The notes under the pieces were generated by a model that was given only the letters and a program-made list of their open reading frames with translations, did not search any database and was not told where the DNA came from. From positions 1 through 46,578 of the forward strand of contig NZ_BLYC01000028.1 of assembly GCF_019721995.1 (NCBI RefSeq): DNA of 46,578 nt. The letters run 5' to 3'. A program made the translations under genes and the position numbers. Within the stretch, counting starts at the first letter, position 1; each line of letters begins with the position of its first letter. This DNA is from Bathymodiolus japonicus methanotrophic gill symbiont (GTDB lineage: Bacteria; Pseudomonadota; Gammaproteobacteria; Methylococcales; Methylomonadaceae). Positions 20,086 to 46,578 of this stretch are shown in pieces.

Positions 20086-21489
20086 CATCTCCTTACACAC
20101 AAGTCTGATATAAGAGTGTAAAATCTCATTATTTTAGTAACGATGACTGAGACTTGGGCAGAAATGGAATTTTGTAATTTAGATTTAGGTGATTCACGGC
20201 TTAATAAAAGAGCAGTTAAATTGATAGAAACTTTTGTAAAAGCGCCTAAACTAAGCATTCCTCAGGCTTGCCAAGGCTGGGCTGAAACACAAGCGACTTA
20301 TCGATTTTATGCAAATGAAAATGTGACATGGGAAAAGTTGTTAGTCGCCCATACAGATCAAGTTGAACAGCGCATTATAGTCAGTGAAGAGCCCGTTATT
20401 TTATGCTTACAAGATACGACAGAATTAGATTTTAATGGACAAGAAACTGAGGATTTAGGTCGCTTATCTTACGATGCCCAAAGAGGCATGTACTTGCATC
20501 CGACACTCTGCATTACACCAGACCGGCTCCCTTTAGGGGTTAGTGATGCGTGGATGTGGGCAAGAGGAAAAAGCAAAGCAGAAGATCAAAATAATCCCAC
20601 GATAAAAGAAAGTGATCGCTGGATAGAAGGTTATGAACGTGTCGCTGAAATGGCCGAACGTTGCCCTAAAAGTCGGCTCGTTTATGTGGCCGATAGAGAA
20701 GGTGATATTTTAAGTCTTATGCAGAGAAGTAAGGCGTTAAATACGCCTGCTGACTGGCTAGTAAGAGCCAGGCATAACCGTAAATTATCAGCGGATGAAA
20801 CACTGTGGGATAGCGTCGATAAGCAAGAGGTTATGAGTCGCGTTAGTTTTATTAAGCCACGAAAAAAAGGCGAAAAATCGCGACAAGTTCAGCAAGAAAT
20901 TAAAGTGTTACGCTGCACTTTCCCCGTAAAAGGGAAAGAAGGTATTGAAGTAACTTTGGTTCAGGCAAAAGAAATCAACCCGCCTAAAGGGAAGTCACCG
21001 CTCATATGGCGCTTATTAAGCAATCGAAGGGTAGAAAGTGAAGATCAAGCCTGTGAGTTGATTGACTGGTATCGCTGTCGCTGGGAAATAGAAATGTTTT
21101 TTGATATTTTGAAAGTGGGCTGCAAGGTTGAAAAGCTTCAATTATCCAGTAAAGAGCGCATTGAAAAAGCCTTAGTCATGGCCATGGTTATTGCTTGGCG
21201 GGTGATGTATCTTATGCGCTTAGGTCGCATCTGTCCTGACTTGCCTGCTGAATTAATCTTTGATCCTTTAGAATGGAAATCATCTTATGGTTTATTGGAC
21301 AAAAAGATACCCAAAAAAGTGCCTACACTGAATGCCGTGTTAAGAAATTTAGCGACATTGGGTGGTTTTTTAGGGCGTAAATCAGATGGTGACCCTGGTG
21401 CGAAAAGTATTTGGATCGGTTTTCAGAGGATTCAGGACTGCGTATATGGTATTCAAATGGCCAGAAAGCTAAAAGGCGTATTTTAGGAC
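20086..21489 (+). mobile_element. IS4-family element copy 2, right end deleted
   Basis: The left inverted repeat is intact (catctccttacacacaag). At the right the element stops after ttttaggac, lacking the final 17 bases of the inverted repeat, and is joined to the middle of pglZ at 21490. The bases ac at the joint are shared by both parents. There is no target duplication. Without the right end this copy should not transpose. Confidence 0.93.
20143..21486 (+). CDS. tnpA: IS4-family transposase (copy 2)
   Basis: A 447-residue product identical to the transposases at 3816 and 34014, with the full set of catalytic residues (see copy 1). The gene is complete although the right end of the element is missing, so the protein could still act on the other copies in trans; Tn5-type transposases prefer cis action. 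Confidence 0.95.
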   Translation: MTETWAEMEFCNLDLGDSRLNKRAVKLIETFVKAPKLSIPQACQGWAETQATYRFYANENVTWEKLLVAHTDQVEQRIIVSEEPVILCLQDTTELDFNGQETEDLGRLSYDAQRGMYLHPTLCITPDRLPLGVSDAWMWARGKSKAEDQNNPTIKESDRWIEGYERVAEMAERCPKSRLVYVADREGDILSLMQRSKALNTPADWLVRARHNRKLSADETLWDSVDKQEVMSRVSFIKPRKKGEKSRQVQQEIKVLRCTFPVKGKEGIEVTLVQAKEINPPKGKSPLIWRLLSNRRVESEDQACELIDWYRCRWEIEMFFDILKVGCKVEKLQLSSKERIEKALVMAMVIAWRVMYLMRLGRICPDLPAELIFDPLEWKSSYGLLDKKIPKKVPTLNAVLRNLATLGGFLGRKSDGDPGAKSIWIGFQRIQDCVYGIQMARKLKGVF

Positions 21490-22908
21490 GCCCTTATTTC
21501 TACTGAATTAGTAGCTAAATTAGAAAGTTTTCAAGATAAAAAAGCGAGCCAGTTAGCGGTAGAAATAACTGAACAATTAGAGCGTAGTAAATTTTCAGTG
21601 TTGCCCGAAAGTGCGACTACAGATGAAGTATTGGCGTGGAGTACAGATTATTTTGAGCTAATGCGACAAAAATTTTCATCCGATGAAGCCATTGAAGAAC
21701 ATCTTAATTTAAGTTTTACCGAATGGTTACTTAAAAAATCAGCTCGAATTGCGCGTTCTGATGCTGATTGGCGACAATTTTCTAAGCGTGTTGAATCCTT
21801 TTTAAAACAAAACTACCTTGTCATTGTTTGCATGGTGGATGCTTTATCCGCTTTAAATACCGATTTATTATTAGAAAGCAGTTCTAAAATTGAACACTTA
21901 ACCCGCTCTAGCGAAACCCTGTTTGCGCCCATCCCGACCTTAACCGAAATTGGCAAAATGGCATTAATTACAGGTACAGAAACCTGTGATTTACCTAGCG
22001 ATAAAGAAACCGCCATTCGGCAACGCTATAAAAAATATTTACCTGAAGAGAAGTCTTTAAAATTTATCACCAGTTGGAAAGCCACAGATAAAAAATTTAA
22101 TGAAAAAACAAATTTACTGGTGTTTTTTGAAAACAGAATCGATGAGCAATTACATAAATGTATTGAATTTAAAAATCATCGAAAGGATGTTAGCAATATA
22201 TTAAGTCAAATGATGTCGTCTGTTGAGAAATGGAAAAAAGATGCAGGCTCTATGAATAGGGATGTGGTGTTTTTAATTACCGCCGATCATGGCATGACGG
22301 TTACCCAAGCAAGCTATGAGGGGGGTAATTTAGGTGACGTTAAAGAGCGAGTTTTTGAAGTGGCTAAATCCTATCAAAATAAAAACGAGGCTTTTTCTTA
22401 TGTCCCTAATGCTGATAAAAATGCGTTTTTAATTCCTAAAAAACGCCTTAGGTTGACGAGAAAAGCCTTGTTATCACATGGCGGTTTAACCCCCGAAGAA
22501 GTGTTAATTCCTTTTGTTACCTTGACCTCTAAAATTCCTGACAGTATTAAAACGCCCTTAGAACTCAAAGTATTAAATGAAAAATGCCAGCGTGTTGCAG
22601 AAAAGTCATGGGAATTAAGTGTTGAATTAGTCGCCAGTGTTCGCGTAGATAATATCTGCATAAAATTTGAAGCTCCGTTTATAGGTGAAGCTTCTTTAAC
22701 GACAATTGCCGAAAATAGTACTCAAAAATTACTGTTAAGTTTTTCAGCTCCTGTAGAGCAATCAGGATTAAGAACCTTATCGCTGCAATTAACTTATGAC
22801 CGTACAGGTGCGCATGAAGTTAATAACAAACTAATAAATTGCCTTTTCACCAAACCCTTACTTGAAAAAGATTTTGCAACACAAAGTTATGAGGATATGT
22901 TTAGCTAA
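21490..22908 (+). pseudogene. pglZ: pglZ duplicate, 5'-truncated
   Basis: Equivalent to residues 288-759 of the PglZ encoded at 43407. The open frame starts at the IS4 junction with no native start; the GTG at 21598 is an internal codon. The alkaline-phosphatase-type motifs are retained (VIVCMVDALSALN and FLITADHGMTVT), but about 287 N-terminal residues are missing. It ends at TAA overlapping the brxL ATG, exactly as in the full operon. It could be translated from a read-through transcript from the IS4 element, but is probably non-functional. Confidence 0.93.
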
Positions 22909-24305
22909 TGAATAAAGAACAATTAGATTATAAAATTCGAGAAACCTTTAGCGAATTAATTATAGATAAAGCCTTAGTTAGACAATTGAAAATCCGTGAT
23001 AATCGCAGTATTCCGAGCTTTGTTGAAGAATGGATGGTTTCAAGGTTTCAAACAGGTAATAAATCTGAGGCAGAAGTTCATAAAGAGATTACCGACTTTA
23101 TGAGCAAGCATTTACCCTCTAAAACGGAAAAAGATAAAATTAAACGCCGTTTACAATTAGGTGAATCGGTTGTTTTGTTAGATCGTTTTGAAGTGCGGAT
23201 TGATTTAGCGAATAACCGACAATTATTAACTATTCCTTGCTTAGATGAGCGTAACGCTACTATTACTCATGAAGTATTAGATACCAACGAATCCATGTTA
23301 GAAGGCGGACAATGGGGGGCGGGGCGTTTATCTTTGCGTGATGAAGGTAAGAAAAAGATTATTGAATTAAGTGAATTTCATCCTATGCAATCGGGTAAAG
23401 TCAATTTAACTCATTTAATCAAAGCGCGTGAACAATTCACTACCCGCGAATGGATTTATTTGTTATTGCGAACGATGGGGTATGAGCCTTTTGCCTATAC
23501 TGAAAAACAGCAAAATCATTTGTTATTGCGTCTTTTACCGATGATTCAAAATAACTTGAATATGATGGAATTAGCCCCTAAAGGCACGGGTAAATCGTTT
23601 ATTTTTTCTAATTTAAGTCGTCATGTTTGGTTGAACAGTGGTGGCGCATTAAGCAACGCGCAATTATTTAAAAATTTAACCACTAAAGAGATTGGTTTAT
23701 TAGGCAAGCATGATGTGTTGGTGTTAGATGAAGGGCAGTCGATTAGTTTTAAAGGCGCGGATGATATTCATGCGAAGTTTAAGGATTATTTAGAGTCGGG
23801 GCATTACAGTATTGGTAATGACAAAATCACCAGTGAATGTGGTTTGATGATTTTGGCAAATATTGATTTATATGAGGATGGTGAGCCAAGGCGAGTGGAT
23901 TATATTCGTCATTTGCCTGAGATGTTTCATGATAGTGCGTTAATAGATAGGTTTCACGGCATTATTGCGGGGTGGGAGATTCCGCGTTTTAGTACCGATA
24001 GTGCGGCGGATGGCTTAGGGATTAAGGCGGATGTGTTTGGTGAATATTTACATCAGTTACGCACGGTAAGTCATACGGAATTTCCTTTTGGTGATGTGCC
24101 TGAGTTGCATCTTAAAGATATGCGCGATTCTAATGCGGTGACACGTTTGGCGACAGCATTATCTAAGTTGTTATTGTTGAATCCTGAGCATCCTGATTAT
24201 GAGGCTTATGTGTTGAATCCTGCTAAAGATTTGAGAACGCGAGTGAGGACGCAGTTAGCAGAGTTAGATCCGCATGAGTTTGAGGCGGGGTTGAAGGTGA
24301 GTTAA
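22908..24305 (+). CDS. brxL: BrxL, Lon-like AAA+ protein of BREX (duplicate, complete)
   Basis: A 465-residue AAA+ ATPase of the short BrxL form (the class of about 450 residues, not the 670-690-residue form with a clear Lon protease domain). Walker A is APKGTGKSFIFSN near residue 224, Walker B is VLVLDEGQSIS near residue 275, and VDYIRHLPEMFHDSALIDRFHGIIAGW near residue 330 carries sensor and arginine-finger-like positions. BrxL forms DNA-binding ring complexes in other BREX systems. This is the only complete copy visible; the one at 45686 runs off the window and is identical as far as it goes. The ATG is coupled to the truncated pglZ. Confidence 0.88.
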   Translation: MNKEQLDYKIRETFSELIIDKALVRQLKIRDNRSIPSFVEEWMVSRFQTGNKSEAEVHKEITDFMSKHLPSKTEKDKIKRRLQLGESVVLLDRFEVRIDLANNRQLLTIPCLDERNATITHEVLDTNESMLEGGQWGAGRLSLRDEGKKKIIELSEFHPMQSGKVNLTHLIKAREQFTTREWIYLLLRTMGYEPFAYTEKQQNHLLLRLLPMIQNNLNMMELAPKGTGKSFIFSNLSRHVWLNSGGALSNAQLFKNLTTKEIGLLGKHDVLVLDEGQSISFKGADDIHAKFKDYLESGHYSIGNDKITSECGLMILANIDLYEDGEPRRVDYIRHLPEMFHDSALIDRFHGIIAGWEIPRFSTDSAADGLGIKADVFGEYLHQLRTVSHTEFPFGDVPELHLKDMRDSNAVTRLATALSKLLLLNPEHPDYEAYVLNPAKDLRTRVRTQLAELDPHEFEAGLKVS

Positions 24306-26333: not shown

Positions 26334-27494
26334 TTAAGCTAATGCTAATGCGCGTAAACGCTGAACCTGTTCACAAATTTTCCGCCCAGCTTGTTTGATT
26401 TCTGCTTCGGTAGTATAACGACCAAAACTAATTCGCACCGCATTATAAAGCCTATCGCCTTCAATCCCCATCGCTCGTAATACATGCGAAGCTTCCATTG
26501 CACCACTGTTACACGCTGAACCTGAGGCAATCGCCACGGTTTCACGCAAAGCAATTAATAAAGCCTCTGAAGGTACATCCTCAAAACTCAGGTTAATAAT
26601 ATGCGGAACACTGTGTTGCGTATCACCATTAAGTTGTACACCGTCTAATTGACTCAAAGCCTCTAATAAACATTGTCTTAATTGCGTTAAATAATCCCAG
26701 TCCATTTGCAAGCGTTGTTGTTGTAAATTTAACGCCGTTGTCATTGCCACAATTTGATGTACGGGTAATGTGCCAGCGCGTAAACCTTGCTCCTGCCCTC
26801 CACCATGTAATAACGGCATTAATGCGGCTTTAGTTCGATGACGAATATACAAACAACCGATACCTTTAGGGGCGTAAAATTTATGTCCTGAAACGGAAAG
26901 AAAATCAATCGAGATTTGGTTTAAATCAATCGCCAATTTACCCGCACTTTGCGCTGCATCGATATGAAAAAACACCTGTTTTTGTTGGCATATCTCAGCA
27001 ATAGCGGCAATATCTTGAATCATACCTGTTTCATTATTAACCTGCATCACTGAAACCAATAACGTTTCATCGCTGATTGCCGTCTCCAATTCATGCAAAT
27101 CTAGCAAACCTTTACGATTAGGTCTTAAATAAGTCACCCGAAAACCTTGCCGCTCTAATTGTTTACAACAATCCAACACCGATTTATGTTCCGTTGCCGA
27201 CGTAATAATATGCTTTTTGTGATGTGCTTGACTGTGAGCCAAACCTTTTAATACTAGGTTATTAGATTCAGTTGCCCCAGAAGTAAAAAAAATCTGTTTA
27301 GGCTGTGCATTGAAATGTGCCGCTATTTCAGAACGTGCATTTTCCACCGCTTGCTCTGCTTGTTCCCCTAACTGATGTTGTATTGAAGCAGGGTTAGCAA
27401 AAATTCCTGTGTGATTTAAGTAATGCAACATTTGCGAAACAGCTTCTTCAGCAACAGGTGTTGTTGCGGCATAATCAAGATAAATTGTCGTCAT
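26334..27494 (-). CDS. Cysteine desulfurase (IscS/NifS/DndA type)
   Basis: A 386-residue PLP enzyme that takes sulfur from cysteine as a protein persulfide. Key features are YLDYAATTP at the start, TSGATESNN near residue 71, HKSV near 103 for PLP stacking, FHIDAAQSAGK near 178, the PLP lysine in SGHKFYAPKG near 204, and the active-site cysteine in ASGSACNSGAME near 328. A long loop around the cysteine places it in group I (IscS/NifS). No iscU, iscA or iscR homologue is beside it, unlike a housekeeping isc operon. With sulfur-dependent BREX genes in the same window it is a candidate DndA/SspA-like donor, but a general iron-sulfur role is also possible. Confidence 0.9.
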   Translation of the reverse strand: MTTIYLDYAATTPVAEEAVSQMLHYLNHTGIFANPASIQHQLGEQAEQAVENARSEIAAHFNAQPKQIFFTSGATESNNLVLKGLAHSQAHHKKHIITSATEHKSVLDCCKQLERQGFRVTYLRPNRKGLLDLHELETAISDETLLVSVMQVNNETGMIQDIAAIAEICQQKQVFFHIDAAQSAGKLAIDLNQISIDFLSVSGHKFYAPKGIGCLYIRHRTKAALMPLLHGGGQEQGLRAGTLPVHQIVAMTTALNLQQQRLQMDWDYLTQLRQCLLEALSQLDGVQLNGDTQHSVPHIINLSFEDVPSEALLIALRETVAIASGSACNSGAMEASHVLRAMGIEGDRLYNAVRISFGRYTTEAEIKQAGRKICEQVQRLRALALA

Positions 27495-30450: not shown

Positions 30451-30535
30451 TTTAATACTCCAATTTTTTACAAATAGTAACTAATTTGGAATAAGATTGC
30501 TTTGATTTCTTGTCTGGATTTGCTGGGGGATTATA
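29634..30535 (-). mobile_element. IS3-family element copy 4, 3'-truncated and inverted
   Basis: Carries the left end (near 30535) and the first 273 or so codons of the transposase on the minus strand, then breaks at catctaatac, where copy 3 ends. About 400 bp including the right end are missing. The open frame continues as a chimera into copy 3 down to 29548, which is not a real gene end. Confidence 0.92.
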
Positions 30536-30718
30536 CCTCGTCCCGACCCAACAAGGGGTCGGAACATAGACTCCAAATGACTTGACGCCGTGTCGGATGG
30601 CCTTTTATTTTGTCTCCACCTTCGCTAACGCTCAGACTCCGACAAAACAACGGCCCTACGGCTATCGCGGACTAAAAATCTTCACTTCGCTTAGGCTACG
30701 TTTCCCTGATTTTCAGCG
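30536..30718 (-). repeat. R1 repeat, truncated copy
   Basis: Reverse complement of R1 from its shared terminus (ending ccctgattttcagcg at 30718) to the ccgacccaacaaggggtcgg hairpin, where IS3 copy 4 begins. About 110 bp of the distal end are lost. Confidence 0.82.
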
Positions 30719-35669: not shown

Positions 35670-36461
35670 ATGGTTAAGGAAAAAAAGGTGCGGCATTTAT
35701 TAGGGATTTCAGGCGGTAAAGATAGTGCGGCATTGGCTATTTATATGCGTGATAAAGAGCCAGATATGGAATATTTTTTTGCTGATACAGGTGCAGAACT
35801 TCCTGAAACTTTAGCTTTTGTTGATTTAATGGAAGATTATTTAGGTAAAGAAATTACTCGTCTTAATGCGGGGCGTGATTTTGATTATTATTTAAAATTA
35901 AATGGAAATTTTTTACCTACTGCGCGTTCTCGCTGGTGTACAACAAATTTAAAACTCAAACCTTTTGAGGAATTTGTAGGTAATAACCCTGTTATTAGTT
36001 ATGTGGCTATTCGTGCGGATGAAGCTTACAGAGAAGGTTATGTTTCCACAAAGTCAAATATTAGTGCTGTTTACCCCTTTAAAGAAGATGGTTTAAATAA
36101 AGATGATATTGTCAAAATTCTTGATGAATCAGGTTTAGGGATGCCTAAATATTACGATTGGCGTAGTCGTTCTGGATGTTATTTTTGTTTTTATCAACGT
36201 AAAGTTGAATGGATGGGGTTACATGATAATCATCCTGAGTTATTTGAAAAAGCGCGACAATTTGAGCTTTATCATAAAAATAAAGGACGAAATCATACGT
36301 GGTCAGAAAATGAATCGTTAGATGAAATGTTAATGCGAAAAGATGAAATTAAAGCGCAAGCATTAATTAAAGAACAAAATACCCTTAAAAAGCCTAAAAA
36401 ATTAATGGATTCTTTATTGGATGATGATTCTGATGATGGCTGTATGATTTGTTTTAAATAA
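35670..36461 (+). CDS. brxP: BrxP, PP-loop PAPS-reductase-like protein of BREX type 4
   Basis: A 263-residue protein of the PAPS reductase / ATP pyrophosphatase family. The PP-loop SGGKDS is at residues 14-19. Further features are EYFFADTGAELPET, RSRWCTTNLKLKP near residue 88, and the cysteine pair SGCYFCFYQRK near 170, with CMICF at the C-terminus; the cysteines could bind an iron-sulfur cluster as in DndC/SspD. DndC-type proteins activate DNA for sulfur insertion. The gene is known as brxP in the BREX type 4 order brxP-brxC-pglZ-brxL. Strong Shine-Dalgarno; its stop overlaps the next ATG. Confidence 0.82.
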   Translation: MVKEKKVRHLLGISGGKDSAALAIYMRDKEPDMEYFFADTGAELPETLAFVDLMEDYLGKEITRLNAGRDFDYYLKLNGNFLPTARSRWCTTNLKLKPFEEFVGNNPVISYVAIRADEAYREGYVSTKSNISAVYPFKEDGLNKDDIVKILDESGLGMPKYYDWRSRSGCYFCFYQRKVEWMGLHDNHPELFEKARQFELYHKNKGRNHTWSENESLDEMLMRKDEIKAQALIKEQNTLKKPKKLMDSLLDDDSDDGCMICFK

Positions 36462-36629
36462 TGACTTCCGACTCTTTGTTTTCACTCTTTAAAAATATTT
36501 CAGTCCGAAAGGTTAATGGAGTTTATTCACTTTATAAACCTTTAGTTCTTCTTTACGCCTTATCTAAAGTTTCTCATGGGGAAGATAGACTGATTTATTA
36601 TTCAAATATTGATGAAAGTTTAAATCAAC
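36461..36629 (+). pseudogene. Sulfur-binding-domain (SBD)-like protein, N-terminal fragment
   Basis: The ATG overlaps the brxP stop (TAATG). The text LFSLFKNISVRKVNGVYSLY followed by KPLVLLYALSKVSHGEDRL resembles the start of the SBD of phosphorothioated-DNA-binding restriction enzymes (ScoMcrA type), where a KPLLLLxALxR block is typical. The match is lost near 36629, where the inverted repeat aaactatgcac begins, and the frame ends at 36643. The remainder appears at 38101. The original gene probably encoded about 150-160 residues, that is, an SBD with no room for an HNH nuclease before the DUF4007 gene. The family assignment comes from memory of the motif. Confidence 0.55.
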
Positions 36630-36813
36630 AAACTATGCACTAAAAGATACATAGTTTGACTTACGACTGAAAGTCGTTCATCGGCTAAAGCCGACTAAAG
36701 AAAAACATACTTGGAGATTTATATAACTCAGGAGAACACCAACGCTCTCATTCGTTTAACTTTCAACCAATGAGTTGTTTACTTTAATATCTCAATAATT
36801 TGGATTTAAATTT

Positions 36814-37665
36814 GGTAGTGGGTTAAATCTGTTATTTCACTTAAATAATTAGGAGAAGTAAAAGGTTTACATCATAATTCCTCGAATGAAATGTTATCAA
36901 GAAGTAAGTTGCCACAATTGTCGCTGTAGCACTATCATGAAATCAGGAAAGAATGCTCAAAATATACAGCGGTATCGCTGCAAAAATAGTGCCTGCCCAA
37001 CTCAAACATTTATGCTGGACTATCGCTATAATGCATGTGTGCCTGGAGTCCAAGAAAAAGTCGTCGAAATGGCTATTAATAGCAGGGGTATTAGAGACAC
37101 CGCACGGGTTCTGAAAATCAATAAAAATACAGTCATCAGCATCCTGAAAAGCAAAGAAGATAGCCTTGTACAGGTAAATCCTGTTTTTCTATCTCAAAAA
37201 TCAGAAACACCTTTAGACGTCCGGCTGGAGCTTGTTTGCGAAGAAGTTGAGATTGATGAACAATGGTCATTTGTAGGTAAAAAGTCGAATCAGCGATGGT
37301 TATGGCATGCTGTTGATCATGCGACTAATACAGTCATTGCTTATGTATTTGGCAAGCGTAAAGATGATGTTTTCAAAGAGCTAAAAGCCTTACTGACTCC
37401 TTTTGAAATAAGCAGATATTATACAGATGACTGGGGGGCTTATGAGCGAAACTTAGATGTAAATGAACATGAAATAGGCAAACAAAACACTCAAAAAATT
37501 GAACGAAAAAACCTAAATTTTAGAACATGGATTAAACGCTTAACGCGTCGAACAATCTGTTTTTCCAAAATAGAACAAATGCATGATATTGTCATTGGAC
37601 TATTAATTAATAAAGTCGAATTTGGACGAGATATTCATGCCTAATAACAGATTTAACCCACCACC
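36814..37665 (+). mobile_element. IS1-family element, copy 2
   Basis: About 852 bp with terminal repeats ggtagtgggttaaatct / agatttaacccaccacc. The flanks (ggatttaaattt and caaaatttaaatc) are near-complementary to each other rather than duplicated, so it lies at the centre of a palindrome-like AT sequence. The element is diverged from copy 1. Confidence 0.88.
36886..37644 (+). CDS. IS1-family transposase (copy 2)
   Basis: 252 residues, clearly homologous to the one at 5480 but with many substitutions (e.g. MKCYQEVSCHNC for MKYYQEITCPNC). The zinc finger, DEQWSFVGKKSNQRWLWHA, YYTDDWGAYE and QKIERKNLNFRTWIKRLTRR are intact, so it is a full transposase with InsA and InsB in one frame. Confidence 0.94.
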   Translation: MKCYQEVSCHNCRCSTIMKSGKNAQNIQRYRCKNSACPTQTFMLDYRYNACVPGVQEKVVEMAINSRGIRDTARVLKINKNTVISILKSKEDSLVQVNPVFLSQKSETPLDVRLELVCEEVEIDEQWSFVGKKSNQRWLWHAVDHATNTVIAYVFGKRKDDVFKELKALLTPFEISRYYTDDWGAYERNLDVNEHEIGKQNTQKIERKNLNFRTWIKRLTRRTICFSKIEQMHDIVIGLLINKVEFGRDIHA

Positions 37666-37804
37666 CAAAATTTAAATCAAAATGAAACCTCATAAATGAG
37701 AGTTTACTAAAAGTCTTGCACTAAAGTGCATAGTTTTTACTAACGATTAGGACAATAAAATCATTGATAAAAATTCCATTAAATTAAACCATAGAAATTT
37801 TCAT

Positions 37805-38098
37805 TGCTGAAAATCAGGGAAACGTAGCCTAAGCGAAGTGATGATTTTTAGTCCGCGATAGCCGTAGGGTCGTTGTTTTGTCGGAGTCTGAGCGTTAGGG
37901 AAGGTGGAGACAAAATAAAAGGCCATCCGACACGGCGTCAAGTCATTTGGAGCCTATGTTCCGACCCCTTGTTGGGTCGGGACGAGGTGACGAGGACGAA
38001 TCGGGGCCGCCGGAGGCATAAGTGGTCGCGTTAAGTTTTTGCTGCTTGCTTGGGCTGGGATGCCCAAAACAAGCTTTCGCAAAAATAGCGACTCCCCG
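37805..38098 (+). repeat. R1 repeat, full copy 2 (about 294 bp)
   Basis: Nearly identical to 7909-8202, from gctgaaaatcagggaaacg to gcgactccccg, including the ccgaccc/gggtcgg hairpin. SBD-like coding sequence resumes directly after it at 38099. Confidence 0.85.
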
Positions 38099-38345
38099 CG
38101 AATGCTTTTGGTCGTTTAATAAATGATAATTTATGGGAAGTGGAAAATGGACAAACTTTAAAATCATTAAGTTCTGGCGATTTAGAAAAATTAGAACTTT
38201 TTAAGAAAAATATACGCAGTGGCTTTTCAGAAGATGTTTATAAAGCACTGATAGACGATAAAAAAACGTTAAAAGAATATATGATTATCTTGAGAATACT
38301 TATTTTGAAAAAACTATAAAATTTAATTTTTTACCCTTAGTCAAC
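38099..38345 (+). pseudogene. SBD-like protein, C-terminal fragment, probable frameshift
   Basis: Resumes as ANAFGRLINDNLWEVENGQT followed by GDLEKLELFKKNIRSGFSED and VYKALIDDKKTLK. The pattern PFxRLxNDxLWEV ... GGFS ... L is what I expect of the second half of an SBD. The frame then stops at 38319, but a shift near the A-rich run 38261-38274 gives IYDYLENTYFEKTI, the more typical end. So the gene is interrupted by IS1 and R1 and may also be frameshifted. Confidence 0.5.
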
Positions 38346-38369
38346 GAGTCAAAGCATAAAGGAAGAAAA

Positions 38370-39242
38370 ATGGCGTTAATGAGTAATGAAGGTGAACCTG
38401 TAACCAGATGGTGGGTTAGCCAAGGTCTTGAAATAGTAAAATCTGAAAGAGATATTTTTACAAAAGCTAAAATGAGAGCCGCTCGACTTAAATTTATAGC
38501 TGGAGCAAATCGTTTAAATACTATTAAAGGCTGGATGGCTTCCGCTCAACTTATAGATAACCAAAGGACTTCAAGAGAGTACGAACTCACAGATTTTGGC
38601 TATGCTATTTTGACTAATGACCCAAAATTAGCAAAATCGTCAACGTGGTGGGCTTTTCATTTATCTTTATGTTTTTCAAAAATAAGTGAACCCTATCCTA
38701 GCTTTTTTTTAGGTCTGGAATCTATTACTAAGGACTGGATTGATTGGAATAAATTATTTACTAAAATACAAACTGATTTAGTTGATGAAACTGGAAAACA
38801 ATATAAAGATTCAACCATTGAATCGTTATCAAGTAGTGTTCGGAAAATGCTTATTAATGGTAATCCTTTAGCTGAATTAGCCTTAATAGAATCTAAAAAA
38901 TCACCCGATGATAAACGGCTTTCAATACGCTTAGGCTCGCCAATACTCTCAGATGAAATCATCATTCACGCCCTAGCAATGGCTAAATTCAGCCACTTTA
39001 AAAGCCGTGATAGCATTGATTTTTCAAAACTCATACAAGAAACAGGCTTGCCACACTTCTTATGCTGCCCTAAAGACCAACTACGCCAACACCTACAACG
39101 CATGAGCCAAATGCACAAATGGCAAAGCTACTTCAGCTTCGACCATGCCGTTGACCTAAACTCCATATCCTTCAAAGAAAACTACGACCCTAACAAAACC
39201 ATCCTCTTGCTATTGCAAAAAGGTCAAGATACTTGGTTATAA
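38370..39242 (+). CDS. DUF4007-like protein (SspB-type candidate)
   Basis: A 290-residue protein. GEPVTRWWVSQGLEIVKS near the start matches the DUF4007 opening, although the usual FSGHE motif is absent. It is followed by GANRLNTIKGWMASAQLID, REYELTDFGYAILTNDPKL and SSTWWAFHLSLCF, the middle block of that family (lT-lG---DP-L---W-lH). DUF4007 proteins accompany phosphorothioation genes; SspB, a nicking component of Ssp systems, is the one I recall. Shine-Dalgarno aaggaag supports the ATG. An open frame upstream without a start joins the SBD-like fragment, so an ancestral fusion is possible but less likely. It is followed by the next gene after 12 bases. Confidence 0.6.
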   Translation: MALMSNEGEPVTRWWVSQGLEIVKSERDIFTKAKMRAARLKFIAGANRLNTIKGWMASAQLIDNQRTSREYELTDFGYAILTNDPKLAKSSTWWAFHLSLCFSKISEPYPSFFLGLESITKDWIDWNKLFTKIQTDLVDETGKQYKDSTIESLSSSVRKMLINGNPLAELALIESKKSPDDKRLSIRLGSPILSDEIIIHALAMAKFSHFKSRDSIDFSKLIQETGLPHFLCCPKDQLRQHLQRMSQMHKWQSYFSFDHAVDLNSISFKENYDPNKTILLLLQKGQDTWL

Positions 39243-39254
39243 GGAAAAATAACA

Positions 39255-39722
39255 ATGGACTTAAACTACTTACAAAACACCCTAAAAACCAACCTAGAGC
39301 AATACCACCAAAAAGAAAACATCCGCTATCGCAATATAGGTATCTCCAGTAAAAACCTCCATGACCTAGACGACGTAACCCAAACATTAAGAGGACTATT
39401 GCCAAACTACGAACTCTGGCAATACTCAGGCATACAAAATGCCCCAGAAGCACGAACCAACAAAAAAAACCTAGAAAAACAAATCCTAGCCGTCCAAAAA
39501 GAAGGCATTATCATTCACCAACCCGAACAATGGACAAGCTACTGGAGCTTAGCCGATAAATCCGCCTTCTGGTCAACCCTCGCCATGTGGCACGACAACA
39601 TAAAAATAGTGCTGGTCTTCACCGCAAGCAATGAATTTCAACAAATAAACCATAACTACTTTAAACCACAACCGCTTGATGGCTTATTCATACAAATTTG
39701 GCGACCCACTCGTGCAGAATAG
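39255..39722 (+). CDS. Small BREX-operon protein, function unknown
   Basis: A 155-residue soluble protein with a good Shine-Dalgarno (aagga). No Walker A, catalytic triad or membrane segment is seen. Recognisable blocks are DDVTQTLRGLLPNYELWQYS, GIIIHQPEQWTSYW and IKIVLVFTASNEFQQI. The last part has the look of a P-loop-fold core beta strand without the nucleotide-binding loop. Position and size recall BrxF of BREX type 3, also a small protein just before BrxC, but BrxF is expected to have a P-loop and this does not. Co-transcription with brxC is near certain. Confidence 0.7.
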   Translation: MDLNYLQNTLKTNLEQYHQKENIRYRNIGISSKNLHDLDDVTQTLRGLLPNYELWQYSGIQNAPEARTNKKNLEKQILAVQKEGIIIHQPEQWTSYWSLADKSAFWSTLAMWHDNIKIVLVFTASNEFQQINHNYFKPQPLDGLFIQIWRPTRAE

Positions 39723-39741
39723 CTCTCTATAAGGAAAAAGA

Positions 39742-42700
39742 ATGAATCTACATGATGTAATTCAAATCAACCCAGAACAAACCAGTGCTGCAATCATACT
39801 TGAACAAGGCATTTCTAATAACGCCTTAGTCGCGCATTACACCCCCACCCAAGCCGCCATTCAAGTCTTTAAACATCTAGCAGAAGCCGTATTACCTAGC
39901 GCAAAATTTGAACAACGCGCTTTAAATCTATATGGAAGCTATGGCTCAGGAAAAAGCCATCTAGCCGTTGTGTTAGCACAACTGTTGCGCGATGGCGCAA
40001 GCACCAAAGGCTTTTCTAAACTAATTGAGCGACTTTGCCTTGCAGGTGAAAATCAACTCGCGGATAAGCTTAAAGAAGCTTTTTTACCTAAAACAGATAA
40101 GGAAGCTAAACCTTATTTGTTAGTTTCACTTTATGCCTCAGGTACAACTTCATTAGGTGCGAAACTCATGGAGGGTTTGTTTGATGCCCTACAAAGAGAA
40201 AGCGAACTTGATATAAAAGCGATTCTGCCGTCTACAGAATACGAAGTATGCGTGAAACGCTTTGAAAAAATGATTGATGATAATGAAGCCTTTAGTGATG
40301 CTGATTTATCACAATGGACATTAAAAAGATCGCATCATTATATTTCAACCGAAGACCTGTTATTTAATTTAAAAGGTCATCAACCGTTAGCATTAGAGGT
40401 GTTTTTAGATTGGCATGAAGCGGTGTGTTTTGGTCAAGCTTTTGATATTTCACAAGCAGGCGGTAAAAATTATATTGATGCCTATTTAGAAGCAGGTAAA
40501 AACCTTGCTGAAAAATATAACTATGGCGGCATTGTGGTTTTATGGGATGAATTTGGTAATGCACTGGAAGATTTAATTGGTAATACTGCGCGAAATGCAG
40601 GACAAGAAATCATGTCTTTACAACAGTTTATCGAAACCGTCTGTGAACCCGATACAGGACATACTTTGTTCTTTGGGGTGACGCATGTTTCTTTTCAAGA
40701 ATACGGCGATAGAACTCATGCCTCAGAAGTCATTAAAGAAAGTTTAGAGAAAATTTCAGGACGCTTTAATAAAGCCTTTAAGATTGAACTGAATGCGGCT
40801 GAAAGTGATGGTTATCATTTATTAGGAATGCAAAAAACGTGGTCAGAACAAGGAAAACAATTATTAAGCCAAGATCAACCAGCTAAATTAAAACTATTAG
40901 AAGCCTGTAAATCTTTACCCTTATTCCAATCTTTAAATGAACATTTAGAACAAGTCTTTGAAGATGTCTATCCTCTCCACCCTGTAATGGCTGTCGGTTT
41001 ATTTAACTTATCAAAACTAGCACAAGCAAACCGAACCGCCTTAACTTTTTTTCGTGATAATGCAGGTGAAATTTTAAATGCTGAATTAAATGACCATCAT
41101 TTATGGCAAAAAGAATTAGTTCGTCTACCTCAGTTATTACACTATTACGCCGATAATCTTAAAAAAGAATCACCAAGCGATTGGCGACGTTATGAGCAGG
41201 CTATTTCTAATGTGAATGGCGACTCAGCCGAAGAGATTAAAATACGAAAAGATATTTTAAGTGTCTTGCTATTAGCGCAATTATTAGAAAATGTTAAAGC
41301 CAGCGATGAGCTATTAGCTTGTGTACTTTATGATGATGAGCCTAATACTGCCCACTCAGAAGCCTTAAATCAACATTCAGCCTATTTAAAAGATGCAGGC
41401 TTAATTTGGAAAAATCCTGTTACCCATTTTTGGCTATTTGCAGGGGAAAGCGGTGTTGATAGTGAATCCTTAATTGAAAAAGAAATAGATTCGTTTTCGG
41501 AACACAGTTATCAATATTTATTAGAAACTTATCCTGATATGCAGGAAGATATTCTGCCAATACTCGGAGAGCATGATTTAGAACCCTCAGCTTGCGGAAT
41601 TATTCGTTCCTATGCGGTGAATCTTTTAACCCCATCTCTTTTGTCCGAACAACTTAAAACAAAAGGGTTATCTTTATCGGCACAGGTTTTTTTAGTTTTA
41701 GCCGATACTCAGCAAGAGGCAAATACCCTAAAAACACAGATTCAAGAAATGCCTAGTGCTAATCATTTCTTTTGGATTCCTGTGTTAGGGATTCAATCAG
41801 AAACCACCATTGAAAATGATATTAGCTTTAAGTTTAATGATTTATTATGCCGCTATTTAGCGATTAATGTGCAGCTTAAAAGTTCAGCCTCCTCAGAAAA
41901 TGTAAAAAAACAACTAGAAGCAAAATGGGAAAGTAATCGTCAAGCGATTAAGCAGCTTTTACAAAAATTTTATGGGCGGTCGGGGTTAAATTCGGCTAAA
42001 TGTCAGATTTATCAAGCAGGTTCAAGTGAACTCTTAAGCTGTGAAAGTTGGCATGGTTTTAAAGAATTGTTAGCGGTTGATGTTGCCGCGACTTATCCTC
42101 AAGAAATTACTATTCGAGCCATGAATATGAATGGTTTAAGAAATGAAAAATATACAGGCTATAAAAAAATTATAAATATAGTTGAACGTATTCTTAAATT
42201 TGATGAAAACCCTTCTTATCAAAAGGATTTATTAGGATTCACTGATACCAGTGAAGAAGGGTCTTTAATTGATGGGGTTTTAGGTGCTAATCAATTATTT
42301 ATTGAGCGTTCGGGTGGTTGGGATATAAAGTTAATCACTGAAACCGAAGGGCATTTAAAAACGGTCTTAAAACTTCTGCATGATAGTTTGTTAAGAAAAA
42401 ATCGTAAAGATGCTTATGTGGTGAGTGAATTACGAAAAAAATTGATGGCTGCTCCTTATGGTATTCCTGCTTGTACATTACCTATATTTACAGCAATAGC
42501 CATTCGTCAAGAAGTAAAACGCTTGCGTTGGGTTGGCTCTGACAATAGTTTTTCTAAGAATTTAACCTTAGCCTTTAAAGAAGGTAGTAAGTTAAAAATT
42601 CGTTTATCTGAGTTTGGTGGAAAACAATTTGCAATGTTGTTTTTGATGGGGAAATCTCTTGGTATTGAAAAGGATGAAGCTCTCACTAACGAAGAGTACG

Positions 42701-43404
42701 CAACCGTTTGTGCCGCTAAATTAAGGAAATTTGTTAATACTAAGCCTGAGGGCGTTAAAGCATCAAATCAATTGGATTTTAAAACGCAAAAACTGGTTGC
42801 TTTTTTAAATACTGTTGGCAAAAGTTCGCAAGAATTAGCCGATTTTTTAATAGATATTTTAGATGTCAAAAAGGATTTACCTTCTCATGATGTTTCTAAA
42901 GTCATTGCTGCGGTACAAGCCTTATTCAATGATTTTTTAAAAGTTGAAGATGCTAAATTACATGAAATAAAATTGTGTTGGGATGATGCTTTTCCTGTTA
43001 ATAAAGATGAAAAACAAACCATTGTCACGCGCTTAAAACAAATTGGCACAGGACAAGCCCAGCAATTAGCAGACTTGTTAGTAGAAACTAATGATGCAGA
43101 AGATATAGAACCTAAAACAGTGATAGAGAAAATGCTATCGCGTTCATTTGATGAATGTTCTGATTCAGATATAGGACGTTGCACAGGTGCAATTGAACAG
43201 TTAATTGAGCAAGCTGTATTAACCCCTGAACCTATCGCTCCTCCCATTACCCCACTTCCTATTATTCCACCTCCTATTATCACTCCAAACCCAGAGCTTG
43301 AAGGGATCGTCAATGAAATTCGTTATATTTTTTCTGCATCTAAACTACCCAAAGAAAAAATTATCAACGTGCTAAACCAAGTGTTACAGCACTATAGGGA
43401 TTAA
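39742..43404 (+). CDS. brxC: BrxC/PglY-type large ATPase of BREX
   Basis: A 1220-residue P-loop ATPase. Walker A is LYGSYGSGKSHLA near residue 68 and a Walker B-like stretch GGIVVLWDEFGNAL lies near residue 267. The rest is largely helical and typical of the BrxC/PglY family (about 1100-1250 residues). Near the C-terminus is a proline-rich linker (PEPIAPPITPLPIIPPPI) before a last helical segment. Shine-Dalgarno taaggaaa. BrxC is an essential BREX core protein, thought to be a DNA- or nucleotide-dependent assembly ATPase. It starts 20 bases after the preceding gene and ends 2 bases before the pglZ ATG. Confidence 0.9.
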   Translation: MNLHDVIQINPEQTSAAIILEQGISNNALVAHYTPTQAAIQVFKHLAEAVLPSAKFEQRALNLYGSYGSGKSHLAVVLAQLLRDGASTKGFSKLIERLCLAGENQLADKLKEAFLPKTDKEAKPYLLVSLYASGTTSLGAKLMEGLFDALQRESELDIKAILPSTEYEVCVKRFEKMIDDNEAFSDADLSQWTLKRSHHYISTEDLLFNLKGHQPLALEVFLDWHEAVCFGQAFDISQAGGKNYIDAYLEAGKNLAEKYNYGGIVVLWDEFGNALEDLIGNTARNAGQEIMSLQQFIETVCEPDTGHTLFFGVTHVSFQEYGDRTHASEVIKESLEKISGRFNKAFKIELNAAESDGYHLLGMQKTWSEQGKQLLSQDQPAKLKLLEACKSLPLFQSLNEHLEQVFEDVYPLHPVMAVGLFNLSKLAQANRTALTFFRDNAGEILNAELNDHHLWQKELVRLPQLLHYYADNLKKESPSDWRRYEQAISNVNGDSAEEIKIRKDILSVLLLAQLLENVKASDELLACVLYDDEPNTAHSEALNQHSAYLKDAGLIWKNPVTHFWLFAGESGVDSESLIEKEIDSFSEHSYQYLLETYPDMQEDILPILGEHDLEPSACGIIRSYAVNLLTPSLLSEQLKTKGLSLSAQVFLVLADTQQEANTLKTQIQEMPSANHFFWIPVLGIQSETTIENDISFKFNDLLCRYLAINVQLKSSASSENVKKQLEAKWESNRQAIKQLLQKFYGRSGLNSAKCQIYQAGSSELLSCESWHGFKELLAVDVAATYPQEITIRAMNMNGLRNEKYTGYKKIINIVERILKFDENPSYQKDLLGFTDTSEEGSLIDGVLGANQLFIERSGGWDIKLITETEGHLKTVLKLLHDSLLRKNRKDAYVVSELRKKLMAAPYGIPACTLPIFTAIAIRQEVKRLRWVGSDNSFSKNLTLAFKEGSKLKIRLSEFGGKQFAMLFLMGKSLGIEKDEALTNEEYATVCAAKLRKFVNTKPEGVKASNQLDFKTQKLVAFLNTVGKSSQELADFLIDILDVKKDLPSHDVSKVIAAVQALFNDFLKVEDAKLHEIKLCWDDAFPVNKDEKQTIVTRLKQIGTGQAQQLADLLVETNDAEDIEPKTVIEKMLSRSFDECSDSDIGRCTGAIEQLIEQAVLTPEPIAPPITPLPIIPPPIITPNPELEGIVNEIRYIFSASKLPKEKIINVLNQVLQHYRD

Positions 43405-43406
43405 AA

Positions 43407-45686
43407 ATGACTGTTATATTTGTTATTGACCGCTTTAATATTGATACGGAAGAAGCGATAGTTGCCGAAACATCAATCCATGCGATTGAGCAATTATGGC
43501 AAACCATTAATCAACATTTAAGGCATGAAGATAGCAATTTGTTACGCGTTCGCTTTAATAATTTAGCTTTATTTGAACGCTTTAGATATTTTGACGGCGT
43601 AGAGGGGGTGTTGCCAATACAGCAACTAATTCCGCGTACTGTTTATAGAAAGCGCGTTGATGAAAATCTGCCGTTATGGTTATCAGACGAATTAATTATT
43701 CAGTTAGGCTTGCTCACTCATCAACACGCTACTAGCTTAGATATTCCGTTAATCGACACGATTATTAAAAGCTGTGATGCTGATTTATTAAGTGAAAAGT
43801 TTCCAGCCTTTACCAGAGCATCAATTAAACATTCAGAAACGTTTTCGCATTTATTAAAAATAGCAGATATTCAAGCGCGTTTTGTTAATAATTTTCAGCT
43901 TGCCTTTGATTTTTCAGAAGACTTAGCCTTACTTTTAATAGAGCAGTTACTTGTAAGTTCATCGCTTAATGATTTTTTTATCACACTTGCTTATGAGCAA
44001 CATCAACAGTTATTACAAGCACAGCTTACACAATTTAAGTTACCTTTATTAGGTGAATCATTACCCGCTTTGTTATTAACCGTACCTTTATTAACCTTAG
44101 AAGAACAGGATGCAAAAGAATTACCGATTCACTGTTTAACCGCATTAGACTTAATAAGCCTTGAAATTAAAAAAGGCAACATAAACGCGAGTGATATTGC
44201 TGATTTAATAGTTGCACCTTGGACAACGGTTTTAGATAAATTGCTATTACTAATTTTGGAAAATAACGCCCTTATTTCTACTGAATTAGTAGCTAAATTA
44301 GAAAGTTTTCAAGATAAAAAAGCGAGCCAGTTAGCGGTAGAAATAACTGAACAATTAGAGCGTAGTAAATTTTCAGTGTTGCCCGAAAGTGCGACTACAG
44401 ATGAAGTATTGGCGTGGAGTACAGATTATTTTGAGCTAATGCGACAAAAATTTTCATCCGATGAAGCCATTGAAGAACATCTTAATTTAAGTTTTACCGA
44501 ATGGTTACTTAAAAAATCAGCTCGAATTGCGCGTTCTGATGCTGATTGGCGACAATTTTCTAAGCGTGTTGAATCCTTTTTAAAACAAAACTACCTTGTC
44601 ATTGTTTGCATGGTGGATGCTTTATCCGCTTTAAATACCGATTTATTATTAGAAAGCAGTTCTAAAATTGAACACTTAACCCGCTCTAGCGAAACCCTGT
44701 TTGCGCCCATCCCGACCTTAACCGAAATTGGCAAAATGGCATTAATTACAGGTACAGAAACCTGTGATTTACCTAGCGATAAAGAAACCGCCATTCGGCA
44801 ACGCTATAAAAAATATTTACCTGAAGAGAAGTCTTTAAAATTTATCACCAGTTGGAAAGCCACAGATAAAAAATTTAATGAAAAAACAAATTTACTGGTG
44901 TTTTTTGAAAACAGAATCGATGAGCAATTACATAAATGTATTGAATTTAAAAATCATCGAAAGGATGTTAGCAATATATTAAGTCAAATGATGTCGTCTG
45001 TTGAGAAATGGAAAAAAGATGCAGGCTCTATGAATAGGGATGTGGTGTTTTTAATTACCGCCGATCATGGCATGACGGTTACCCAAGCAAGCTATGAGGG
45101 GGGTAATTTAGGTGACGTTAAAGAGCGAGTTTTTGAAGTGGCTAAATCCTATCAAAATAAAAACGAGGCTTTTTCTTATGTCCCTAATGCTGATAAAAAT
45201 GCGTTTTTAATTCCTAAAAAACGCCTTAGGTTGACGAGAAAAGCCTTGTTATCACATGGCGGTTTAACCCCCGAAGAAGTGTTAATTCCTTTTGTTACCT
45301 TGACCTCTAAAATTCCTGACAGTATTAAAACGCCCTTAGAACTCAAAGTATTAAATGAAAAATGCCAGCGTGTTGCAGAAAAGTCATGGGAATTAAGTGT
45401 TGAATTAGTCGCCAGTGTTCGCGTAGATAATATCTGCATAAAATTTGAAGCTCCGTTTATAGGTGAAGCTTCTTTAACGACAATTGCCGAAAATAGTACT
45501 CAAAAATTACTGTTAAGTTTTTCAGCTCCTGTAGAGCAATCAGGATTAAGAACCTTATCGCTGCAATTAACTTATGACCGTACAGGTGCGCATGAAGTTA
45601 ATAACAAACTAATAAATTGCCTTTTCACCAAACCCTTACTTGAAAAAGATTTTGCAACACAAAGTTATGAGGATATGTTTAGCTAA
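43407..45686 (+). CDS. pglZ: PglZ, alkaline-phosphatase-superfamily protein of BREX
   Basis: A 759-residue PglZ-family protein. The N-terminal third (residues 1-290) is helical and specific to the family. The phosphatase-like core follows, with VIVCMVDALSALN near residue 397 (metal and nucleophile region) and FLITADHGMTVT near residue 549 (metal-binding Asp-His). GGLTPEEVLIPFV near 628 is the conserved C-terminal part of the core. PglZ is the BREX hallmark and acts as a nuclease or phosphodiesterase-like component. It overlaps brxL by TAATG. Residues 288-759 are duplicated without change at 21490-22908. Confidence 0.93.
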   Translation: MTVIFVIDRFNIDTEEAIVAETSIHAIEQLWQTINQHLRHEDSNLLRVRFNNLALFERFRYFDGVEGVLPIQQLIPRTVYRKRVDENLPLWLSDELIIQLGLLTHQHATSLDIPLIDTIIKSCDADLLSEKFPAFTRASIKHSETFSHLLKIADIQARFVNNFQLAFDFSEDLALLLIEQLLVSSSLNDFFITLAYEQHQQLLQAQLTQFKLPLLGESLPALLLTVPLLTLEEQDAKELPIHCLTALDLISLEIKKGNINASDIADLIVAPWTTVLDKLLLLILENNALISTELVAKLESFQDKKASQLAVEITEQLERSKFSVLPESATTDEVLAWSTDYFELMRQKFSSDEAIEEHLNLSFTEWLLKKSARIARSDADWRQFSKRVESFLKQNYLVIVCMVDALSALNTDLLLESSSKIEHLTRSSETLFAPIPTLTEIGKMALITGTETCDLPSDKETAIRQRYKKYLPEEKSLKFITSWKATDKKFNEKTNLLVFFENRIDEQLHKCIEFKNHRKDVSNILSQMMSSVEKWKKDAGSMNRDVVFLITADHGMTVTQASYEGGNLGDVKERVFEVAKSYQNKNEAFSYVPNADKNAFLIPKKRLRLTRKALLSHGGLTPEEVLIPFVTLTSKIPDSIKTPLELKVLNEKCQRVAEKSWELSVELVASVRVDNICIKFEAPFIGEASLTTIAENSTQKLLLSFSAPVEQSGLRTLSLQLTYDRTGAHEVNNKLINCLFTKPLLEKDFATQSYEDMFS

Positions 45687-46578
45687 TGAATAAAGAACAA
45701 TTAGATTATAAAATTCGAGAAACCTTTAGCGAATTAATTATAGATAAAGCCTTAGTTAGACAATTGAAAATCCGTGATAATCGCAGTATTCCGAGCTTTG
45801 TTGAAGAATGGATGGTTTCAAGGTTTCAAACAGGTAATAAATCTGAGGCAGAAGTTCATAAAGAGATTACCGACTTTATGAGCAAGCATTTACCCTCTAA
45901 AACGGAAAAAGATAAAATTAAACGCCGTTTACAATTAGGTGAATCGGTTGTTTTGTTAGATCGTTTTGAAGTGCGGATTGATTTAGCGAATAACCGACAA
46001 TTATTAACTATTCCTTGCTTAGATGAGCGTAACGCTACTATTACTCATGAAGTATTAGATACCAACGAATCCATGTTAGAAGGCGGACAATGGGGGGCGG
46101 GGCGTTTATCTTTGCGTGATGAAGGTAAGAAAAAGATTATTGAATTAAGTGAATTTCATCCTATGCAATCGGGTAAAGTCAATTTAACTCATTTAATCAA
46201 AGCGCGTGAACAATTCACTACCCGCGAATGGATTTATTTGTTATTGCGAACGATGGGGTATGAGCCTTTTGCCTATACTGAAAAACAGCAAAATCATTTG
46301 TTATTGCGTCTTTTACCGATGATTCAAAATAACTTGAATATGATGGAATTAGCCCCTAAAGGCACGGGTAAATCGTTTATTTTTTCTAATTTAAGTCGTC
46401 ATGTTTGGTTGAACAGTGGTGGCGCATTAAGCAACGCGCAATTATTTAAAAATTTAACCACTAAAGAGATTGGTTTATTAGGCAAGCATGATGTGTTGGT
46501 GTTAGATGAAGGGCAGTCGATTAGTTTTAAAGGCGCGGATGATATTCATGCGAAGTTTAAGGATTATTTAGAGTCGGG
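45686..46578 (+). CDS. brxL: BrxL, Lon-like AAA+ protein of BREX (runs off the window)
   Basis: The first 297 codons, identical to the copy at 22908 as far as visible, including APKGTGKSFIF and VLVLDEGQSIS. The window ends within the gene at the position matching 23800. Last gene of the visible operon; what follows cannot be seen here. Confidence 0.9.
   Translation, partial: MNKEQLDYKIRETFSELIIDKALVRQLKIRDNRSIPSFVEEWMVSRFQTGNKSEAEVHKEITDFMSKHLPSKTEKDKIKRRLQLGESVVLLDRFEVRIDLANNRQLLTIPCLDERNATITHEVLDTNESMLEGGQWGAGRLSLRDEGKKKIIELSEFHPMQSGKVNLTHLIKAREQFTTREWIYLLLRTMGYEPFAYTEKQQNHLLLRLLPMIQNNLNMMELAPKGTGKSFIFSNLSRHVWLNSGGALSNAQLFKNLTTKEIGLLGKHDVLVLDEGQSISFKGADDIHAKFKDYLES

Follow-up and report, generated by a model that had tools for sequence, protein, structure and literature searches.

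How BREX-type complexes without a methyltransferase discriminate self from non-self DNA is an open question, and it is posed directly by an operon of the Bathymodiolus japonicus methanotrophic gill symbiont. The window, i.e., the whole stretch of DNA that was analyzed (46,578 nucleotides), is the entire contig C28 of a 4.97-Mb genome (G000). The operon runs on the + strand from position 35670 to the contig end, where brxL is left incomplete because the window is the whole contig. A first-pass annotation had described a BREX type 4-like operon in the order brxP, SBD-like gene, DUF4007-like gene, small gene, brxC, pglZ and brxL, without a PglX-type methyltransferase and with DNA phosphorothioates (PT) suggested as the basis of self-recognition. 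The ORF map agrees with its coordinates, strand and gene order, and no methyltransferase family was matched among the ORFs scanned in 35670-46578 with Pfam, PADLOC and NCBIfam. The profile matches given below cannot be put down to chance, those of PglZ being weaker. Several gene identities had to be revised, and the window holds a damaged copy of a likely phage-defence operon.

The first gene (35670..36461, +), formerly read as brxP, is sspD. Its product, a PAPS-reductase-like sulfur transferase of 263 aa, matches the PADLOC SspD model with 4.5e-108 and the BrxP model only partially, with 2.2e-6; for comparison, the BrxP of Methanosphaera scores 1.6e-246 with the BrxP model. The profile searches proposed with the first-pass annotation gave matches for PF01507 (sspD, 1e-8), for the SBD (NF045808, 4.1e-6) and for DUF4007 (PF13182, 1.3e-17). 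A cysteine desulfurase gene (26334..27494, -; IscS/DndA-like, PF00266 8.9e-92) on the same contig is a candidate sulfur donor, scoring 2.3e-146 with IscS and 1.1e-130 with DndA, both under the cut-off. In the genome of the Bathymodiolus platifrons methanotrophic gill symbiont (G006) a cysteine desulfurase gene lies downstream of brxL. SspA is reported to bind SspD, its proposed sulfur acceptor, and SspB to nick (PMC7188994).

The stop codon of sspD overlaps the following ATG by one base. The ORF starting there (36461..36643, +) encodes 60 aa, of which residues 9-56 correspond to positions 6-53 of the 284-position model of NF045808, a PT-DNA-binding family; in an SBD profile made here it corresponds to positions 2-54 of 147. 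The homology proposed for this SBD-like gene is thus borne out, but it is not a gene of its own: it represents the first 60 codons of a longer one. In G017 and G027 a single ORF of 455 or 459 aa encodes the SBD (5.9e-20 and 3.8e-25) together with DUF4007. The 60-aa piece shares 50% identity with residues 6-61 of the G017 fusion (455 aa), and the DUF4007 ORF of the window (38370..39242, +; 290 aa), correctly recognized in the first annotation, is 70% identical to its residues 167-455. Between the two pieces lie an IS1-family transposase gene within the SBD part (36886..37644, +; NF033558 4.1e-55, PF03400 7.1e-48), a 293-nt repeated element of the same interruption (37806..38098; repeat families D7, I9 and I10) and a second SBD remnant (38104..38295, +; profile positions 70-134, 5e-26), which is in a different frame from the DUF4007 ORF. 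The "SBD-like gene" and the "DUF4007 gene" are therefore one SBD-DUF4007 gene split by an IS1 insertion and a frameshift. The same broken gene is found in G006, with 100% protein identity in the SBD and DUF4007 pieces and 98% in the IS1 transposase. The reader domain is lost from the window copy, and the idea that this copy still reads PT is not supported; the DUF4007 frame, whose product is called SspB2 here, is still open and has its own ATG.

The next gene (39255..39722, +) encodes a small conserved protein of 155 aa with homologues at the same position in relatives. It has no Pfam or NCBIfam match and a single poor PADLOC match (0.021). Its predicted alpha/beta fold (pLDDT 89) gives weak AAA+/ORC matches (best E 0.017), so that it perhaps belongs to the P-loop (AAA+/STAND) class, although a P-loop motif is not visible by eye. 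It aligns with its counterpart of one Gemmataceae locus (E 1.3e-4, probability 54%) and not with that on an Abditibacteriota plasmid. An identification as BrxB was rejected, as hhalign gave a probability of 0.1% against three BrxB proteins, and the fold class alone is only weakly suggestive.

The putative brxC (39742..43404, +) indeed encodes an SspC/BrxC-type ATPase, of 1220 aa, but it scores far better as SspC (6.1e-53) than as BrxC (1.1e-13, both PADLOC) and forms a clade of its own apart from SspC and BrxC in our tree; we call it SspC2. It is absent among the matches of PDLC02472, the best model of the Methanosphaera BrxC, and weakly matches PDLC02477 (1.3e-5) and PDLC02490 (6.6e-4), both of which the Methanosphaera BrxC matches too. 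The assignment of pglZ (43407..45686, +; 759 aa) holds with weaker scores (PADLOC PglZ 1.5e-7): the nearest NCBIfam model is the type-4 one, NF033445, matched with 1.6e-11 and 43.6 bits, below its cut-off of 140. The residues D404, T437, T439, D553, H554 and H617, which we take to be catalytic, are invariant in all eight aligned proteins; a comparison with solved structures gave no useful match. BrxL (45686..46578, +; PADLOC 2.5e-70) was also correctly named, but only its first 297 residues precede the contig end. The full length is 465 aa, both in G006 and in a second copy in the window (22908-24305), and the G006 protein reaches 382.5 bits against a TIGR02688 cut-off of 329.3.

This second copy belongs to an exact direct repeat of 2313 bp, in which the end of the window (44266-46578; 3' part of pglZ and start of brxL) recurs 22,778 bp away at 21488..23800 (+). 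The inner copy begins beside a Tn5-type IS and contains a truncated pglZ and the complete brxL. The repeat may reflect a partial duplication, or it may point to a 22.8-kb circle or an assembly join. The 293-nt element also recurs at 7910-8202 and, inverted and incomplete, at 30535-30717. The contig looks plasmid-like, with ParA-like proteins at 2130-3197, 8693-9403 and 27638-28243 (named by eye), a RepA-like ORF that is cut short (32248-33267) and whose full form in G006 matches PF10134, and numerous identical IS copies. Between 13063 and 19877 ORFs for a helicase, a methyltransferase and truncated restriction subunits, likewise named by eye, resemble an IS-cut restriction system.

Canonical SspB and SspC are encoded outside the window in the same genome, on contig C95, which carries sspB1 (cut by the contig end), a full sspC1 (1283 bits) and then a YhgA-like gene. 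In G623 sspB1, sspC1 and a YhgA-like gene immediately precede sspD, and in G006 sspB1 and sspC1 are both of full length. For the distribution of this arrangement an SspC2 alignment was searched against 237 genomes of the host's family (E 1e-40), and matches were obtained in 30 genomes from 11 of 29 genera. Among 369 genomes drawn from the class only two matched, both of the host's family. A scan of genome contigs gave 21 loci, from methanotrophs (Methylococcales), MAGs labelled bacterium or proteobacterium and two Gemmataceae. The locus was absent from all 67 candidate stretches on viral contigs, none of the five matches of the window SspC2 in plasmid records covered 80% of the query, and a search of 246 Planctomycetota genomes (E 1e-60) returned only one already known locus. 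BrxP was found in none of 249 Pseudomonadota genomes at E 1e-40.

The upstream side of sspD is readable in 19 of the 30 family genomes. In 13 of them sspC1 lies upstream on the same contig, sometimes with small genes in between; sspB1 is also covered beside it in 11 (G021, G017, G623, G427, G459, G428, G454, G622, G510, G600 and G456), and in G500 and G027 sspC1 stands at the end of the stretch read. The remaining six (G000, G006, G605, G606, G597 and G603) have no sspC1 at this place. A search for SspC1 in 16 genomes gave a match in 13. In G000, G006, G605 and G606 sspC1 and sspD are on separate contigs; it is also on another contig in G013, G586, G566 (one stop), G598 and G609 (two pieces), where the contig with the second gene set ends at or near sspD or sspB2. 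G603, whose operon is largely eroded, retains an sspC1 fragment, and no SspC1 was found in G597, G004 and G014 (assemblies of 190 to 340 contigs). On the other side, sspD lies upstream of SspB2 in all 22 genomes in which this place is readable, with other genes in the interval in G600 and an inserted gene in G027.

In the trees SspB1 and SspC1 group with the proteins of ordinary Ssp loci. The SspC2 proteins, from Methylococcales and Gemmataceae, cluster in a clade with support 1.0. A clade with the same support unites the SspB2 proteins of Methylococcales, both Gemmataceae and Thermomicrobium and excludes SspB1. The original layout is thus likely sspB-sspC-sspD, as a PT writer (set 1), followed by a diverged set of (SBD-)DUF4007, small protein, BrxC-like ATPase, PglZ and BrxL (set 2).

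Individual loci depart from this layout. In L067 (G564) the N-terminal part of sspC1 runs directly into sspC2 from profile position 61, and sspD, sspB2 and the small gene are missing, as if by deletion. In Methylotuvimicrobium buryatense 5G (L015/L035) sspD is split by an inserted gene, transposase-like by eye, and this copy was rejected as a working model because of that split. G006 encodes a second, more distant SspC-like protein with 28% identity (G006:C392:1694-4315). The gene after brxL varies in L012, L016, L029, L013, L014 and L011 and encodes a GmrSD_N/DUF262-type protein, a protein kinase or a PLD-helicase. The GmrSD_N/DUF262-type protein follows brxL in G013, G014, G017 and G586, and that of G013 has SspE among its weaker matches; an SspE-type effector was not seen in the window operon.

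The junction between SBD and DUF4007 is readable in 23 of the 30 genomes (all except G004, G011, G013, G014, G564, G609 and G621). The SBD is fused in frame to DUF4007 in eight (G017, G027, G427, G459, G566, G428, G510 and G623, the last without a usual start codon before the SBD) and intact but separate in two (G606 and G598). In four it is broken or partial (the window genome, G006, G454, and G601 at a contig end), and in nine it is absent (G021, G586, G622, G605, G597, G600, G456, G500 and the eroded G603). An intact SBD thus stands at this place in 10 of the 23; conserved synteny with an intact SBD is what the first annotation would have taken as support. The proposal of a PT-based system with a sulfur reader is in this sense backed by homology for the family (SspD, DUF4007 and the SBD), although not for the reader of the window copy.

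A predicted structure of the M. buryatense 5G fusion is confident in its SBD part and poor in its DUF4007 part (mean pLDDT 60.6). The modelled SBD matches the PT-DNA-bound SBD of ScoMcrA (5zmo) with E 8.8e-8 and TMt 0.79 (by sequence 1.1e-5). The sulfur pocket of ScoMcrA is reported to consist of H116, R117 (K in most), Y164, P165 and A168, with P165 among the most conserved and a P165N mutant giving no DNA shift (PMC6224610). Three of the eight fused SBDs have H-K-Y-P in the pocket (L015, L036 and L066), whereas five have Y-K-Y-A (L017, L028, L032, L034 and L037), i.e., H116 is changed to Y and P165 to A relative to ScoMcrA. The first SBD piece of the window has Y-K, and the remaining two pocket positions fall in the gap between the remnants. 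The two pocket types sort into two SspB2 clades (support 0.81 and 0.92), so that SBD and DUF4007 appear to have moved as a unit, the SBD being lost repeatedly. That SBD presence as such follows the SspB2 tree was rejected: it requires 8 changes on 23 tips (21 family loci and the two Gemmataceae, omitting the identical G006 and the eroded G603) against a shuffled mean of 7.7. Only two pairs have dS < 1, and for these the SBD gives dN/dS values of 0.20 and 0.25; in the remaining 26 pairs, with dS > 1 or no value, the SBD ratios range from 0.18 to 0.64.

Distant loci show related gene orders. Both Gemmataceae loci have two sets, as far as they are covered. The large plasmid of Thermomicrobium roseum carries sspB-sspC-sspD-DUF4007-small-large-PglZ-BrxL; the large protein (1401 aa) matches the SspC1 profile only, weakly, and no PADLOC model, and PglZ is a full-length match to the PADLOC PglZ model (1742.5 bits), so that this locus is probably already counted as BREX. 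An Abditibacteriota plasmid (L089, AP024153.1) has a similar run of genes for DUF4007, a small protein, a BrxC-like protein, PglZ and BrxL, in which the DUF4007 is weak and the small protein gives AAA-type matches. In place of sspBCD this run adjoins a DrmMI/PglX-like methyltransferase, and no SspD match was found in the stretch read, which fits a restriction module able to take different writers. However, its DUF4007 falls outside the SspB2 clade, among other SspB proteins, and SspC2 does not group with the BrxC-like proteins of this plasmid or of Thermomicrobium; the likeness is therefore one of order rather than tree. No SBD was matched in the two Gemmataceae loci or in Thermomicrobium. Of nine other plasmid regions compared, that of Methanosphaera is a single-set BREX type 4 and eight are Ssp or Ssp-like loci, in which neither annotation nor the profiles used gave PglZ or BrxL, the PglZ profile being insensitive since it missed the PglZ of Methanosphaera. 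After or near sspD, other Ssp loci carry other genes, such as those for an FtsK/SpoIIIE-type or a DUF262 protein.

We consider a two-set, PT-based defence, damaged in this symbiont, the best explanation, with a probability of about one half. Set 1 (cysteine desulfurase, SspD, SspB and SspC) would mark host DNA with phosphorothioates in the manner of known Ssp systems, and set 2 would form a BREX-type restriction complex. DUF4007 would bind DNA, with its SBD docking at PT-marked sites. The small protein and the BrxC-like ATPase would relay the signal, and DNA of the wrong PT status would be acted on by PglZ as nuclease and by BrxL as DNA-binding ring. PT binding would either hold the set-2 complex off or license it, as with SspE. 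In type-1 BREX, PglZ is reported as a metal-dependent nuclease complexed with BrxB (PMC12205998). Several observations argue for this explanation, in which PT would mark self: two sspB-sspC sets surround a single sspD, set 2 occupies the place of the other genes of Ssp loci, SspB2 and SspC2 form clades distinct from set 1 in the trees, and a set-2-like run exists beside a methyltransferase. The modelled likeness of the 5G SBD to PT-bound domains and the dN/dS of the two pairs with dS < 1 also speak for it. On the other hand, sspD stays with set 2 even where sspC1 is elsewhere or not found, six of 19 genomes lack sspC1 upstream, SBD absence is scattered over the SspB2 tree, most fused SBDs have the altered pocket, the Abditibacteriota DUF4007 and the BrxC-like proteins of that plasmid and of Thermomicrobium fall outside the set-2 clades, and the DUF4007 half of the 5G model is poor.

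The locus differs from each of the known systems. With Ssp (SspABCD with SspE or SspFGH) it shares the sspB-sspC-sspD order, the SspD family and a nearby cysteine desulfurase, but it has PglZ, BrxL and a second DUF4007/BrxC-like set as the adjacent module, with an SBD fused to this DUF4007 in many relatives. With type-1 BREX (BrxA, BrxB, BrxC, PglX, PglZ and BrxL) it shares the BrxC-like ATPase, PglZ and BrxL, and DUF4007 is described as BrxA-like in architecture (PMC12839542); here, however, there is no methyltransferase, and the small protein has no sequence match to BrxB. The PT-dependent restriction endonucleases ScoMcrA and SprMcrA have an SBD as well, which is joined to DUF4007 here and not to SRA/HNH. 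More tentatively, the locus may be a BREX machine in which an entire PT-writing Ssp operon took the place of the methyltransferase and the BrxA-like DNA-binding subunit itself bears the sulfur reader, so that the backbone mark is read directly; its core would be old (three phyla), with the reader gained in methanotrophs and then lost many times.

The retention of sspD upstream of SspB2 in every readable genome, also where sspC1 is on another contig or not found, keeps a reading with two writers and one SspD in play, although we regard it as doubtful. Set 2 would then also write PT, at another motif, and the locus would be a split-gene BREX type 4, with SspD and DUF4007 standing in for BrxP and with an added ordinary SspBC pair. 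Single-set BREX type 4, with one SspD, SspB and SspC, is reported to make PT (PMC12839542, PMC11931770). The loss of the HETF motif in SspB2 is no objection, and was rejected as proof that set 2 does not write, since the Methanosphaera BrxP also lacks the H and the Thermomicrobium SspB2 keeps it. However, SspC2 and SspB2 are far from both SspC/SspB and the BrxC/BrxP of BREX type 4 in the trees, in most readable genomes sspD follows sspC1, as is usual for it, and the Abditibacteriota run has no SspD match.

An ordinary BREX type 4 (the first-pass annotation called the operon type 4-like) is disfavoured, and its combination with an SBD nuclease as accessory is improbable. The type-4 loci (brxP-brxC-pglZ-brxL, as on Methanosphaera pNP174) have a PAPS reductase, DUF4007, a BrxC-type ATPase, PglZ and BrxL and no methyltransferase, as here, and the PglZ of the window is nearest to the type-4 model. 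In those loci there is a single set, in which one protein combines the PAPS reductase with DUF4007. Here SspD is separate, DUF4007 proteins and ATPases each occur twice, and a small protein is present, joined in many relatives by an SBD; BrxP is missing, PglZ scores under the type-4 cut-off, and SspC2 does not match the best model of the Methanosphaera BrxC and matches two others weakly. The fusion in type 4 is described as occurring 'frequently' (PMC12839542), so a single-protein BrxP is not an absolute criterion. Nucleases of the wHTH/SRA-HNH type are described beside BREX loci (PMC12839542), but the SBD as part of a separate PT-dependent nuclease was rejected, as the two SBD-DUF4007 fusions scanned with Pfam and NCBIfam have no HNH or SRA match.

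A decayed relic without remaining function in the host is very unlikely: the interrupted SBD-DUF4007 gene, sspB-sspC on another contig, the many IS, the partial second copy and the eroded operon of G603 would fit it, but the ORFs of sspD, DUF4007, the small protein, the BrxC-like ATPase and PglZ are open over the length of their homologues, the near-identical G006 retains full sspB and sspC, and SBD-less relatives with otherwise full sets exist. With its SBD destroyed and sspB-sspC on contig C95, the window copy at best works like the nine SBD-less relatives.

A PT-based BREX type 4 has already been published, with DUF4007 corresponding to SspB, BrxC to SspC and the PAPS reductase to SspD (PMC12839542), and the link is also made in PMC11931770. 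The terms SBD and sulfur-binding do not occur in the main text of PMC12839542, and a single set is described in its section on type 4. In the literature searched, whose scope leaves out most subscription papers, we found no report of the two-set layout or the SBD-DUF4007 fusion. A BREX-type subunit with a built-in PT-binding domain makes the question of self-recognition without a methyltransferase testable by a simple binding assay, for which the SBD-bearing and SBD-less relatives offer a natural comparison. The two-set layout would separate on the DNA the functions that are merged in one set in type-4 BREX.
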